A DNA stretch of 49,751 nt, from contig JABLTI010000033.1 of NCBI GenBank assembly GCA_013166835.1, positions 1 to 49,751 of the forward strand, written 5' to 3'. The stretch is from Promethearchaeati archaeon. Its GTDB lineage: Archaea; Asgardarchaeota; Heimdallarchaeia; JABLTI01. The position numbers and the translations under genes are program-made. The notes under the pieces were generated by a model. The model was not told where the DNA came from. It made no database searches and saw nothing but the letters and a program-made list of their open reading frames with translations. Below, piece after piece: positions 42,609 to 49,751 of this stretch; the stretch's first letter is position 1; each line of letters starts with the position of its first letter.

Positions 42609-45600
42609 CTATTCTTGATTTTCAGCTTCTTGGTTTTCATGATTGATCATGAAAGCATCACTTTTCTTTTTGCGCCAGCGTATACCTTCACGTACCCATT
42701 TCACCTCATCTTCTCGAGATAATTTAGAGAGGAAAAATGGAGCAATGTAGTAAACGAGTATACAACTTATTATTGAACCAAAAATAATGAGGATATAACG
42801 TATAATGATATTATTCTTGTTATCAGTAGGATCCAAAGGATCGGTTTCGTCAAGTAATTCTTGACCATCGTCAATACCATCAGAATCACTATCAGCAAGT
42901 AGAGGATTAGTGCCTAAAATGATTTCATCACCATCGTTAACACGATCATCGTCTGTATCTGGATCATGAGGGAGAGTATTATAAACGAATAATTCATTAT
43001 AATCAGAAATTCCGTCTTGATCCGTGTCTGCTATATTAGCAAGAGTATAATAGATAGCAATCTCCTCAAAATCTGTGAGCCCATCCAAATCAGTGTCATT
43101 TACTAAAGGATTTGCTTTATGGAGAAACTCTTCAACATTAGAAATGCCATCATTATCAGCATCTAATGCAGAATCATCTATTACTGGATCAAAACCATAA
43201 AGCCATTCGAAATAATCATCCATTCCATCAAAATCTGTGTCGATTAAAGTGGGATCAGAGCCATAGTCCAATTCTACATTGTCATCTACAAGGTCTTCAT
43301 CTGTATCTTTTTTAGCTGGATGAGTGTTATAAATGTAAACCTCATCCCCATCAGAGAGACTATCTCCATCGGAATCAACTATATGAGGATCAGAACCATA
43401 GACATGAATTTCAAGATAATCATTCAAATCATCATAATCAGTATCAGGATTTGTGGCATTGGTATGTAATACTATGATTTCATCATAGTCGCTTAAACCT
43501 TCTCCATCGGTGTCATACAAGATGGGGTTTGATCCATAAACAAGCTCTTCATTATCCCAGAGTTTATCTCCATCCGTATCGGTATTTTTAGGATCAGTCC
43601 ACAGTAAGAACTCTTCGTAATTGGTCAGCGTATCACCGTCGAGATCTATGAGGGCATCTGAAGCATTAAGAGGATCTAGATGCATATAGTATTCATACCC
43701 ATCTGACATCAAATCATCATCTGTATCATTATCAAGAGGATTGCAATTAATTGTTATATCAGTTTTGTCAGATAGTAAATCACCATCCGTATCCCATAAT
43801 GTTGGATTAGTAAAAACAAAGCCTGTTGCATTAGCTGCAGGATTAGCAGGAGCATATATTCCATAAACTTCCACCCCATCCATATAACCATCTTTGTCTG
43901 TGTCAAATACTGCGGGGTTTGTTCCCCACACCATCACTTCCTGGTAATCATCAAGGCCATCGCCCTCGTAATCAACTTGTCCGGGATGCAGATTCCATTG
44001 GTATTCATAAAGGTTGATTAATCCTTCTCCATCTGGATCTAAGGCGGAATCATTAACATTAATATCTAAATAATCCCGATAGAGATATTCATACGCATCA
44101 GACATTGTATCATTATCCGAATCCCCTGAATTTGGATCAGAACTTAAATCATTGATCTCTAAACCATCGTCTAACGTATCCCCATCCGTATCAGTATTCA
44201 TTGGATTTGTTAGATGTATAATAACCTCATCATAATCACTCACAAAGTCATCATCAGAATCATTATCGTTTGGATATGTGTTTGCTAGGAACTCATCAAT
44301 GTTCAATAAAGAATCGTTGTCTAGATCCCCTAGGGAATCATCTGAATATGGATCTAATCCATAATGAAATTCATATCCATCCAACATTCCATCTGCATCC
44401 TCATCAGGATTGAACGGATCAAAACCATTGGCAATTTCCTCTCCATCTAGCATTTGGTCATCATCGGTGTCAGGATCAAATGGATCGGTACCATATATTC
44501 CTCTTTCTTCATAATTCATTAATCCATCTTCATCAGCATCATTCCATCCTTTTCGATAGTAAATTGTTCTAACATTATCTACTTGATCCACCCAAGCCAT
44601 ATGGATATTCCCATCTGAATCTACAGTTAAATCAGGATATTGTGAATAACCATGAACTGGATTCAGTAATACGTCGCCAGACCAAGCATTAGTTGTTGGA
44701 GAAAAAGTCTTCATATACAATCCTGCAGTAGTTCCTCCAATGTATTGAACCCAATTCCAGAGTAGAATCATTCTACCAAAACTATCAACTACACCAGTTA
44801 TGTGACAATTTTGAGCTGCTTTCGTGGAAACTGCTATTAGATCCGTTGCATCTCCAGAGGTAAGTTTTTGATACATAATGGAATATTCATCTTCACCAGT
44901 AGGAACATTGTATATCAAGTGAAGGCTTCCATCTTCTGAACTAAATATACTTGGTTTAGGAACATAATATATATTTGAGGGGATTTCAAATATTTGGCGG
45001 AATCCCGTCCAAGTGAATGGTGCTGTTGCATTCTCTTTCCAATACAAATCATATTGGATAAAGTATAATCGCTCGTAGTAGTTTATCCGATAAGAGTATA
45101 CACTTCCTTGGTAGAAAAATGATCTTTCTTGTCCCCCAACATTTGCTATATGAAAGTTATAATTAGAAGTAGATAAAGAATAAGAATAAGACTCATCAAA
45201 AGCTTGACTACTCCAGGTATTGGATTCTTCATTATATTTTGAATAAAAGAAGTCAATATCATATAGACTTGTGGAAGCAACATAGACAACCTTTGGCTTA
45301 CTCTCATTAGTAAGTTGTAATCGAGGATTTTCACCGTAACCTACAATCGAGGGAGTATTCCAAGTTTCGTTCTCATACATTCGATATTTTATGCTTGCAT
45401 CATGAAGCCAAACTAAATGTATGCGACCTTCTGGATCGGTTTTTACATCCATTAAACCAAAGTATTCACTTGCGGTATCACCAATTATGACCCTATCACT
45501 CCATACACCTGTCAGATTATTTTTCACATTATGAAATAGTACCCACTCATCATTATATCGTCCAGACCAAAACACATGAACATTTTCTTCTTTGTCAAGT

Positions 45601-45899
45601 GCGATTTTAATATCATTTAAGGGATTATCTGGTTCTATTACCTCAGAATCTTCCCAACCATAGGATCCGAGAAGTTCATAATCAGGAGTTAAGTATGTAC
45701 CAAAGTTATTGTCTCTTCCAGCAGTTTCACTAAAATAATTTCCTCCATCCCAATCATTTGGTGTTTCAGATCCATCTTCTAGTTTTACAATTTCAATTAT
45801 TGCTTGAGAGGATACATTAGTGTCTGTGAGTAATGTGCCAACAAATATGAAATTTAATAAAAGAATACCGAAGAGAAGTTTTTTGGACCATTTTAACAT
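42609..45899 (-). CDS. Large surface protein with beta-propeller and 24 calcium-type (TSP3-like) repeats
   Basis: The 1096-residue protein has a signal peptide (SKKLLFGILLLNFIFVGTLLT) and a propeller-like half (about 60-450) with recurring 'D-x-x-G-x-x-H-x-x-W' blocks such as DKEENVHVFWSGR. From about 455 to 1016 I count 24 units with D-x-D-x-D-G-like cores (DTDDDQMLD, DTDKDGYMD, DSDSDGIDD and others). These loops bind calcium in thrombospondin type 3 repeats. A membrane helix (about 1035-1057) and a basic then acidic tail close it. It lacks the FIPGF sorting motif. Adhesion or a stiff calcium-loaded stalk is a reasonable guess. The propeller half resembles the protein at 2292-3713. Confidence 0.85.
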   Translation of the reverse strand: MLKWSKKLLFGILLLNFIFVGTLLTDTNVSSQAIIEIVKLEDGSETPNDWDGGNYFSETAGRDNNFGTYLTPDYELLGSYGWEDSEVIEPDNPLNDIKIALDKEENVHVFWSGRYNDEWVLFHNVKNNLTGVWSDRVIIGDTASEYFGLMDVKTDPEGRIHLVWLHDASIKYRMYENETWNTPSIVGYGENPRLQLTNESKPKVVYVASTSLYDIDFFYSKYNEESNTWSSQAFDESYSYSLSTSNYNFHIANVGGQERSFFYQGSVYSYRINYYERLYFIQYDLYWKENATAPFTWTGFRQIFEIPSNIYYVPKPSIFSSEDGSLHLIYNVPTGEDEYSIMYQKLTSGDATDLIAVSTKAAQNCHITGVVDSFGRMILLWNWVQYIGGTTAGLYMKTFSPTTNAWSGDVLLNPVHGYSQYPDLTVDSDGNIHMAWVDQVDNVRTIYYRKGWNDADEDGLMNYEERGIYGTDPFDPDTDDDQMLDGEEIANGFDPFNPDEDADGMLDGYEFHYGLDPYSDDSLGDLDNDSLLNIDEFLANTYPNDNDSDDDFVSDYDEVIIHLTNPMNTDTDGDTLDDGLEINDLSSDPNSGDSDNDTMSDAYEYLYRDYLDINVNDSALDPDGEGLINLYEYQWNLHPGQVDYEGDGLDDYQEVMVWGTNPAVFDTDKDGYMDGVEVYGIYAPANPAANATGFVFTNPTLWDTDGDLLSDKTDITINCNPLDNDTDDDLMSDGYEYYMHLDPLNASDALIDLDGDTLTNYEEFLLWTDPKNTDTDGDKLWDNEELVYGSNPILYDTDGEGLSDYDEIIVLHTNATNPDTDYDDLNDYLEIHVYGSDPHIVDSDGDSLSDGDEVYIYNTHPAKKDTDEDLVDDNVELDYGSDPTLIDTDFDGMDDYFEWLYGFDPVIDDSALDADNDGISNVEEFLHKANPLVNDTDLDGLTDFEEIAIYYTLANIADTDQDGISDYNELFVYNTLPHDPDTDDDRVNDGDEIILGTNPLLADSDSDGIDDGQELLDETDPLDPTDNKNNIIIRYILIIFGSIISCILVYYIAPFFLSKLSREDEVKWVREGIRWRKKKSDAFMINHENQEAENQE

Positions 45900-47285: not shown

Positions 47286-48140
47286 ATGAAACTAGAAAAC
47301 CCAGTAATATTAACTACAAACCAAAATGTCTGTGGAATTAATATCAGGAATGCATTACTTGATAATTGGGATTATGTAGAAACCGAAGAAGTTTTTGATG
47401 GAACGCCAATTTATCAGTTCAAGCACATTCGATTAGTTTATTCCGAAAAGGATGTTATCAATGCAAATCATTGCGATGAGTTGAATGCTGATTTACTTTT
47501 ATATGGTTCTCGTCACAAAAGTGAAGCTAACAAACCTAGTTTATTAACACATGTAACTGGCAACCTTTCAGAAGACAACAGTCACGGTGGCAATCCTTTG
47601 GAACTGGCATATGCTTCTACTCGAGCAATAAGAGAATCCTATCTTGGATTGCTAAATGAAAAGGAAGCGCTGGGTTTAGTTGATTTTGATGTAACTGTTG
47701 AAGCAACACATCATGGTCCTACATCTATGAAAACACCACTCGTTTTTATTGAAGTAGGGAGCACCGAAATCGAATATAAAAATGAGAAAGCAATATTAGC
47801 AGTAGCGAAAACTATAATGAATATTTGTCTTAATGAGAATGAGGATGCAATTAGACCTAGTATTTGCTTTGGTGGCGGACATTATGCAACGAGATTCGAT
47901 GAATTAATGGAAATAACACCAGTTGCAGTTGGGCACATTTTACCAAAATATCGTAAATCAAATTTAACAACACAAATAGTTGAACAAATGATTGAAAAAA
48001 CTGTTGAAAAAGTGAAATGGGCAATTATAGATAGAAGTAGCTTAAATGCAGAACAAATTCAAATAATTAAAGATGGGTGCTCAAAATTTGGAGCAGAGAT
48101 CGTGAAAGCGAGAGATGTTAAATATGGGAAAATCACTTAA
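47286..48140 (+). CDS. dtdA: D-aminoacyl-tRNA deacylase (DtdA/GEK1 type)
   Basis: The 284-residue product from ATG 47286 carries the archaeal/plant DtdA signatures: SLLTHVTGN, EATHHGPTSMKTPLVFIEVGSTE (about 140-162), CFGGGHYATRFDELM and VGHILPKY. It frees tRNA from wrongly attached D-amino acids. A start at 47229 would begin inside the argF terminator hairpin and add residues unlike the family, so it is rejected. The gene converges with the ParB-like gene and overlaps it by 8 nt. Confidence 0.92.
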   Translation: MKLENPVILTTNQNVCGINIRNALLDNWDYVETEEVFDGTPIYQFKHIRLVYSEKDVINANHCDELNADLLLYGSRHKSEANKPSLLTHVTGNLSEDNSHGGNPLELAYASTRAIRESYLGLLNEKEALGLVDFDVTVEATHHGPTSMKTPLVFIEVGSTEIEYKNEKAILAVAKTIMNICLNENEDAIRPSICFGGGHYATRFDELMEITPVAVGHILPKYRKSNLTTQIVEQMIEKTVEKVKWAIIDRSSLNAEQIQIIKDGCSKFGAEIVKARDVKYGKIT

Positions 48141-48549
48141 TTGTATTTTTACTTCTCTTTTCTTCCATTTGTTTTTTTAGTTGATTACATCGTTCATACC
48201 AAAGTATTTCGTAATCCTTGTGACTAATTACTCGAGAACTCAAGCCTGCAATTGTATAGATCTCATCTTGTTTACACCAATCAACACAAACTTCATACAT
48301 TTCCCAATCTAAATCTTCAGTTTCCCATTCTACTCTAACTTCTTGCCATCCTAATAGATGTGCTGCATAGGCTCTCGTATGACCATCCGAGTAAACGATA
48401 TCTGTTCCTAGTTTCTTTACAGGAATTATCTCAAGACTTTCTTTTTTGTTAGAATTAAGTTTTTCTTGAATTTTTGCTAGTTTCCTCTTGCTAATGTATA
48501 ATTGACTTGGTTGTATATCTTTTAAATTCATATGAAAAATAGAATTCAT
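48133..48549 (-). CDS. ParB/sulfiredoxin-fold protein
   Basis: The 138-residue protein shows the ParB N-terminal pattern: MNLKDIQPSQLYISKRKLAKI, then IIPVKKLGTDIVYSDGHTRAYAAHLLGW (about 41-69). The central DGHTRAYAA corresponds to the G-x-x-R-x-x-A nucleotide-binding box. The usual ParB helix-turn-helix and dimer domains are absent, so it is unlikely to segregate chromosomes. It begins 18 nt after the beta-CASP nuclease gene and an AAGGAG site lies in that gap, so the two are probably cotranscribed. Confidence 0.7.
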   Translation of the reverse strand: MNSIFHMNLKDIQPSQLYISKRKLAKIQEKLNSNKKESLEIIPVKKLGTDIVYSDGHTRAYAAHLLGWQEVRVEWETEDLDWEMYEVCVDWCKQDEIYTIAGLSSRVISHKDYEILWYERCNQLKKQMEEKRSKNTIK

Positions 48550-48567
48550 TTTCTGAAATTGCTCCTT

Positions 48568-49704
48568 TTAATCCGCAAAGTAATCATCCAGAGTAGTTTT
48601 TTTCTTAGCATCTTTATTGGATGGTTTATTCTTTATTGTTGTTATCGGGATTTGCTTTTTATTTTGCTTTTTTATTTCTGGTTTTTTAGATATTTTTTGT
48701 AGGCTTTGTTCTTCCTTTTTCCTTAAAGGAATTGCTGGGATGTTTAATTCATTGGTTATGGCTTTTGCTAATTTTTCTTCGAGACCATACATTGTGAATA
48801 TAAGTTCTGGAGATACTTCTTTGATATACTCAATTAATTCATGATAGTTTGCATGTGATGAAAGTGGGAAAGCGGCATCGTAATCCTTGTATATGAACCT
48901 AGAAGCCATTCCGGTCACAATCGCACTGCGATAATTGATATGTTCTTTGATGAAATATGGCACTATTTTTTTCTCTCGAGGTTGTATGATAATAGCTTCA
49001 CCATCACGTAATATTTCGCGCCCTTCTTCTGATTTAGAATCAAAGTAGTCTAGTTGAATTCCGTGTTTTTGATAAACATCACTTACGGAGGTTACTTCTC
49101 CATGAGTTACAACTCTAAGGTTGGTGAGATTGTTATACATCTTAATTAGTTCTTGGGCTGAACCTAGTTTACCTGCTGAAAATACGACATTTCGTTTCTC
49201 TTTTATAACATCAGCAGACCATTTCAGGATTTCCATAGAAATTTCTTCTCGAGATGGAAAAACTAGTTCCGGAGAACCAAAAGTTGCTTCTATAACAAGT
49301 ATATCCGCATCAATTTTTGCAACAGGTTCTTTTATTGTTAATTGTCCTCTTCCACCGATATCACTTGTAAATAAAATTATTTTATCATTGTAATTAATAG
49401 AAACAGAAGCTGAACCTAAGACATGACCAGATGAAACCAATCTCACATCTAAAGCAGGTATATCATGGTCAAAAGCAATTTTTTCATTAAATTGTGTAGG
49501 TTGAAAAGTTATTGGTCCAGTAGGTTTTTTCTGACAAAAGAATAAATCAATAGTTTCTTGTGTTGCTCGGGTTTTTGGATTAGAATACATGAAAGCAAAA
49601 TGATCAGAATGAGCATGGGTTACAATTGTTTGAGCATTTAGAGGAATTTTCGAGCTTTTACCATCAATTAACAATTTTTGATTATCTGGAAAATCGAATT
49701 GCAA
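48568..49704 (-). CDS. Beta-CASP metallo-beta-lactamase nuclease with C-terminal PIP-like peptide
   Basis: The protein of at least 378 residues has the MBL motif THAHSDH (29-35), then SSGHVLGSA, FTSDIGG, the beta-CASP motif A Glu in ILVIEATFG, and motif B His in PLSSHANYHEL. This places it among SNM1/Artemis- or exonuclease-like beta-CASP enzymes, not CPSF-type proteins with KH domains. A lysine-rich linker (about 335-368) leads to KTTLDDYFAD at the very end, close to the PCNA-interacting consensus Q-x-x-h-x-x-a-a. The annotated start is TTG 49704, but the frame is open to 49734 and FYYRNGLQF upstream looks native; ATA at 49731 follows GGTGG. It probably acts on DNA ends or repair intermediates. 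Confidence 0.8.
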   Translation of the reverse strand: MQFDFPDNQKLLIDGKSSKIPLNAQTIVTHAHSDHFAFMYSNPKTRATQETIDLFFCQKKPTGPITFQPTQFNEKIAFDHDIPALDVRLVSSGHVLGSASVSINYNDKIILFTSDIGGRGQLTIKEPVAKIDADILVIEATFGSPELVFPSREEISMEILKWSADVIKEKRNVVFSAGKLGSAQELIKMYNNLTNLRVVTHGEVTSVSDVYQKHGIQLDYFDSKSEEGREILRDGEAIIIQPREKKIVPYFIKEHINYRSAIVTGMASRFIYKDYDAAFPLSSHANYHELIEYIKEVSPELIFTMYGLEEKLAKAITNELNIPAIPLRKKEEQSLQKISKKPEIKKQNKKQIPITTIKNKPSNKDAKKKTTLDDYFAD

Positions 49705-49751
49705 GCCATTTCGATAATAGAATTTGTATATGGTTTACCCACCTTCAGTTA

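Follow-up and report, generated by a model that had tools for sequence, protein, structure and literature searches.

We report that a beta-CASP nuclease encoded near the end of an Asgard archaeal contig belongs to a family that is probably tethered to the replication sliding clamp through its extreme C-terminus, by a peptide that fits whichever clamp the host has, and that the ParB-like protein encoded next to it is likely an independent neighbor. The window, meaning the whole stretch of DNA that was analyzed, covers 49,751 nucleotides of a Heimdall-type Promethearchaeati archaeon (contig JABLTI010000033.1). The broader proposal is that a single beta-CASP family carries out end processing while attached to the clamp, in archaea as well as in bacteria, and that its attachment peptide switches between PIP and beta-clamp type depending on which clamp the host has, even for Asgard copies on the bacterial side of the tree; we hold this proposal to be about evenly balanced. 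If true, the family would be a general replication-coupled processing nuclease that lies outside the described ligase/Lhr operon and has been overlooked until now. The clients of the clamp are a small set of enzymes whose position in replication and repair is defined, and matching peptides in two domains of life would allow sequence alone to assign this family a location at the clamp and a likely class of substrate. Because the peptide changes from PIP to beta-clamp type between hosts, the family comes with a natural control, and short peptides would suffice for an easy test of the claim.

In the mechanism that we propose, Heimdall-type and several other archaea would use a PIP-like peptide on a flexible lysine-rich linker, docking in the hydrophobic pocket of PCNA through Leu at position 4 and an aromatic pair at positions 7-8. 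In Myxococcota, Chloroflexota and Verrucomicrobiota a beta-clamp-type peptide occupies the place of the PIP. The tether would position the metal-dependent enzyme behind the fork at DNA ends, gaps, flaps or RNA-DNA junctions, which the clamp-held nuclease would trim ahead of ligation. In some Verrucomicrobiota an ATP-dependent DNA ligase directly follows the nuclease in one protein. The analysis establishes the genes, the motifs and their distribution, the predicted folds and the ligase fusion; from these we infer clamp binding, polarity, DNA preference and end trimming, and likewise the role of the ParB-like neighbor.

The two genes and their parts are arranged in the window as follows:
48568-49704, minus strand: beta-CASP nuclease read from a TTG start, 378 aa
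48568..49731, minus strand: the nuclease read from an ATA start, 387 aa
48571..48720, minus strand: C-terminal extension of the nuclease, 50 aa past the core, consisting of the lysine-rich linker and the terminal peptide
48577..48600, minus strand: PIP-like octapeptide KTTLDDYF, followed by AD and the stop; a short helix in the model
48550-48567: intergenic gap of 18 nt, with the ParB-like gene downstream of the nuclease gene
48133-48549, minus strand: ParB-like gene, 138 aa

The first-pass annotation had located both genes and the 18-nt gap correctly, and the nuclease tail indeed reads KKTTLDDYFAD. The gene probably starts at the ATA at 49731, 27 nt upstream of the TTG and behind AAGGTGG, since both the N-terminus encoded from there and the ribosome-binding-like sequence recur in the seven genomes of this archaeon's genus. 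Conserved non-standard start codons are rare. ATA TAC AAA TTC follows a GGTGG-containing sequence at similar spacing in six of the seven genomes, the seventh (L073) having ATT, and at least three of the genomes contain no in-frame ATG, GTG or TTG between the preceding stop and the ATA site. The start of contig C7 (G000:C7:2-97, L003) contains the nuclease gene's 5′ end a second time, at 97 % protein identity, before running on into an ADP-forming acetyl-CoA synthetase; C7 thus probably continues this chromosome, perhaps with sequence from a near-identical strain. Further into the window, at 42609-45899 on the minus strand, lies a secreted-looking protein of 1096 aa with a C-terminal membrane segment and many D-x-D-x-D-G-type repeats that, by eye, look calcium-binding and thrombospondin type-3-like.

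The nuclease is a metallo-beta-lactamase/beta-CASP protein with an RMMBL domain over the Pfam cut-off. Among NCBIfam models the best match is TIGR04122, the ligase-associated DNA damage response exonuclease; the score of 130.8 bits falls short of the 325 that the curated cut-off demands. The ligands of motifs 1-4 and motif B (D14, H30, H32, D34, H35, H94, D115 and H284) are present in 35/35 aligned sequences, and residue 139 of motif A is Glu, with Asp in 3 of the 35. The predicted structure has a mean pLDDT of 85 and is ordered to about residue 328; residues 330-370 are disordered (pLDDT <50, the linker mostly at 34-42), and a short helix at 372-375 falls inside the terminal peptide.

The best structure matches of the model are archaeal CPSF and the TTHA0252 RNA nucleases (Z 30-31), and because these nearest structures are RNA enzymes, RNA has to be considered as a possible substrate. 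The clamp tether could then be real while the enzyme acts at the fork as an RNA nuclease that removes primers or R-loop RNA, comparable to the use of PCNA by RNase H2. The neighborhood adds to this case: the nuclease gene adjoins a NusG-like gene in families f3 and f5, with ribosomal L11 nearby in f3. However, motif C contains no fixed His, being Tyr306 in the window nuclease and Y, H, F, C, T or L among aligned relatives, and the fusion to DNA ligase in Verrucomicrobiota also speaks against an RNA nuclease, which we consider unlikely. Motif C is His in RNA-type beta-CASP members and Val in DNA-type members (PMC3095777). We retain a clamp-tethered enzyme that may prefer DNA as the better reading.

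By reading of their sequences, the recurring Asgard neighbors of the nuclease are ribosomal L11, a NusG/Spt5-like protein and ADP-forming acetyl-CoA synthetase, and those in f11 and f25 are a glycine hydroxymethyltransferase-like protein and a CBS-domain protein, with the PolD large subunit three genes away. A conserved repair operon was looked for in Asgard and not found in these neighborhoods, which counts against the proposed role of the nuclease. In a non-exhaustive scan of the inspected Asgard neighbors, we recognized neither a ligase nor an Lhr-like helicase.

Evidence for the peptide begins in the genus, where the nuclease ends in TLDD[FY]F plus 2-4 residues in all seven genomes that have the gene. 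Mean pairwise identity within the genus is 27 % in the linker (residues 329-366, minimum 2 %), 71 % in the core and 72 % over residues 369-375 (KTTLDDY). Set against the PIP consensus Q-x-x-h-x-x-a-a, h4 and a7-a8 are present in 7/7, and position 1 is occupied by K, V, E or D, which means that the textbook Gln of the PIP is not kept. The suggestion of the first-pass annotation that this end resembles a PCNA-binding peptide is borne out, as the peptide is kept behind a divergent, predicted-disordered linker, recurs across many Asgard homologues and is matched by beta-clamp motifs in bacteria. The peptide does not vary freely among orthologues, although position 1 departs from Gln. The genome's own second nuclease copy (contig C197) ends in GQSTLDNFF, and PCNA is encoded in the same genome.

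On a wider scale, we counted three patterns, which like the beta-clamp pattern were chosen after inspecting the tails, in 76 distinct Asgard sequences that form a subset of the nuclease matches. The loose anchor (Leu/Ile/Met at position 4, an aromatic at 7 and a hydrophobic at 8) is found in 45/76 against a shuffled mean of 3.5. By family it occurs in 7/7 sequences of f1, 21/22 of f3, 7/7 of f5 and 8/8 of f11, and in 0/14 of f28, all 14 of which end at the core and have no tail; the remaining Asgard families have ends like QQTLDVYT- or QKTLHQFC-. Of the PIP patterns that limit position 1, the relaxed form (relaxed at position 8) matches 48/76 and the strict form 28/76; when the set is reduced to its 63 distinct tails, the relaxed form matches 43, while shuffled tails give 2.1 on average. 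In these and the beta-clamp counts, any sequence extending more than 60 residues past the core was searched over its first 24 residues, of which 4 belong to the core. Two f1 tails (L071 and L073) score as none in these counts because their position 1 is E or D. As a background, the last 16 residues of 478 neighboring Asgard proteins match the anchor in 39 cases, the relaxed pattern in 15 and the strict in 7, while the 60 nuclease frames of the same loci match in 30, 28 and 22. FEN1, a known PCNA client that served as positive control in Asgard genomes, matches the relaxed pattern in 27/29 and the strict in 19/29 (29 of 30 loci were read, and the two misses probably reflect a wrong open frame). 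Judged by the shuffles, the lineage breakdown and the background of neighboring proteins, the PIP-like peptide is above chance at the level of sequence.

In other archaea the picture is thinner. The relaxed PIP occurs in 13 of 67 rows counted as archaeal in the named-genome set, some of them Asgard, and in 2/30 Thermoproteota, the latter being the best 30 matches from an evenly drawn search. Bathyarchaeota and other Thermoproteota have degenerate ends such as QRTLSDDY or QSSLF. The peptide is thus common in several Asgard lineages and patchy in other archaea, and this patchiness, like the tailless f28 sequences, counts against the tether reading. Four Bathyarchaeota proteins (L128, L144, L145 and L148) carry about 75-80 extra C-terminal residues that by eye look like a small winged helix, in place of a clamp peptide.

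Bacterial homologues end in QLELF, QMELW, QLDLF, QLTLPL, QLALAL or QLEMPL. The beta-clamp consensus is a pentapeptide of the QLxLF type or a hexapeptide of the QLxLxL type. QL(S/D)LF is given in PMC3504372. The motif is present in 37/40 Myxococcota proteins outside the TIGR04122 cut-off (36/39 distinct tails, against a shuffled mean of 0.9 and maximum of 4), in 11/16 from Chloroflexota, 18/28 from Verrucomicrobiota and 9/13 from named bacteria, and in 18 of 1839 other bacterial open frames taken as background. It is found in 0/30 Myxococcota proteins over the TIGR04122 cut-off and is absent from the Verrucomicrobiota rows of the TIGR04122 clade (L325-L331). The PIP pattern, conversely, matches 0/40 Myxococcota, 0/16 Chloroflexota, 0/28 Verrucomicrobiota and 1/13 named bacteria, and this single case (L181) is equally readable as QPTLW. 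Only 2/76 Asgard sequences match the beta-clamp pattern; these two are probably f11 tails, QLELL and QLDLM, that fit the PIP pattern as well.

These counts bear on the reading in which the C-terminal hydrophobic peptide serves dimerization or some other partner and its clamp likeness is coincidental. Short motifs are easily met, as the 39 of 478 neighboring proteins with the loosest anchor illustrate, and the Gln at position 1 is often absent. Coincidence is nevertheless hard to reconcile with bacterial homologues that show a different and equally clamp-specific motif at the same place, the two patterns hardly overlapping, and we regard it as distinctly unlikely. Attachment to the clamp remains our preferred role for the peptide.

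A link to ligation comes from Verrucomicrobiota, where ATP-dependent DNA ligase domains lie downstream in the same chain in all three scanned proteins (L310, L314 and L192; in L192 the ligase N-terminal domain alone, as the frame ends early). The junctions between nuclease and ligase in these three carry motifs of the QLEFGL-, QLEMPL- or QLSLDL- type. Verrucomicrobiota L305-L314 and L319 are single open frames of about 750-1090 aa, in which a long further stretch comes after the nuclease. Beside standalone bacterial copies, no separate DNA ligase was recognized by eye at 13 named loci, the sole ligase there being the L192 fusion.

A tree of 85 cores separates an archaeal from a bacterial side (split 100/99). 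Three Asgard paralogues, L074 (the window genome's own), L124 and L087, group with the bacterial side without falling among the bacterial rows themselves, and two of the three have a canonical PIP (QSTLDNFF and QTILDSYF). The type of peptide therefore tracks the clamp of the host and not the position of the nuclease in the tree. The TIGR04122 clade, also on the bacterial side, branches from within bacterial rows that carry the clamp motif (97/91 and 98/93), which suggests that this clade lost it; the tree is unrooted, and the branch leading to the clade is long. A plasmid search matched three haloarchaeal 'hypothetical proteins', and a phage search gave no matches.

The ParB-like protein has no Pfam or NCBIfam match. 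Among 23 relatives, 4 match ParBc_2 weakly, with E 0.034 at best, and a PDB sequence search with the alignment of the protein returned nothing relevant. Its predicted structure (pLDDT 91) matches ParB, Noc, SbnI, SerK and sulfiredoxin structures, including 5x0k (Z 8.1), 2rii (Z 7.9), 5uje (Z 7.6), SerK folds (Z 8.0-8.1) and ParB 6sdk (Foldseek E 2.8e-05, VIA-align Z 7.1). The ParB/sulfiredoxin fold named by the first-pass annotation is therefore right, and is invisible by sequence. ParB's DNA-binding part is absent, as had also been noted: past the fold there are just helices at 82-94 and 100-106 and a long helix at 110-136. DGHTR (residues 55-59), Cys88, Cys92 and Cys121 are invariant in 23/23 sequences. 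ParB partition proteins share the N-terminal ParB/Srx fold, but the ParB-like protein lacks their HTH and C-terminal dimerization domain; it is set apart from SerK/SbnI, sulfiredoxin and ParB by its 138 aa, the DGHTR motif and the three invariant cysteines.

The earlier proposal that nuclease and ParB-like protein function as a pair would make them a nucleotide-regulated complex, and ParB folds do bind nucleotides (PMC12704722). The two genes are adjacent and on the same strand, roughly 9-22 nt apart (gaps that depend on start calls), in 7/7 genomes of the genus with both genes, so the adjacency extends beyond one genome. It does not extend beyond the genus: it is seen in 0/22 other Asgard genomes with both genes, and the one case with both on a single contig (G184) has them about 1.5 Mb apart. 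The distributions also differ, with the ParB-like gene in 50/227 Asgard genomes (E up to 0.001) and the nuclease in 102/227 (E up to 1e-20), and the ParB-like gene keeps other neighbors elsewhere. By reading of their sequences, the f28 neighbors (L055, L057, L059, L061 and L064, with the ParB-like gene at position ~1500, or 574 in L057) comprise genes resembling TusA, DsrE and cysteine desulfurase, although some loci lack one or more of the three, and those in f19 are a phosphoesterase and a Ras-like GTPase. Because the adjacency is confined to the genus, as a recent local arrangement would give, we reject a functional pair as a general rule and find a nucleotide-regulated complex highly improbable. 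SerK, SbnI and Srx are ATP-using enzymes of the ParB fold that have no HTH (PMC12704722). Given this and the other neighbors elsewhere, we think it most likely that the ParB-like protein is a small enzyme of the SerK/sulfiredoxin kind that depends on a nucleotide and works independently of the nuclease, perhaps in sulfur or amino-acid metabolism. The f28 neighbors and the three invariant cysteines hint at a sulfur-relay role for the family. The ParB-like neighbor is dispensable for explaining the nuclease, and a false lead is thereby removed.

Clients of PCNA with a C-terminal PIP have already been described in archaea, among them NucS (PMC4929162) and the PHP-domain protein Pab0431 (PMC3820547). 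The portions of the literature on archaeal PCNA clients that we searched contain no beta-CASP client, and in the open-access literature searched we found no report of a clamp motif or peptide in this beta-CASP family, where such peptides appear new. FEN1, NucS and Pab0431 share with the nuclease a PIP at the extreme C-terminus, but their catalytic folds are unrelated. SNM1A is a beta-CASP nuclease with a PIP box that acts in DNA repair; it belongs to the eukaryotic SNM1/Pso2 branch. aCPSF1 (KH-beta-CASP) and TTHA0252/CPSF-73 have the MBL/beta-CASP fold and metal ligands in common with the nuclease, which at ~380 aa is too short for KH domains, has no fixed His in motif C and ends in a clamp peptide. 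The TIGR04122 exonuclease (Xnuc_lig_assoc) is homologous across the core, at the score given above, but the window nuclease falls under its cut-off and the sampled Myxococcota proteins of TIGR04122 type have no clamp motif. A clamp tether would also distinguish the family from the ligase-associated exonuclease, the enzyme on whose model its members score.
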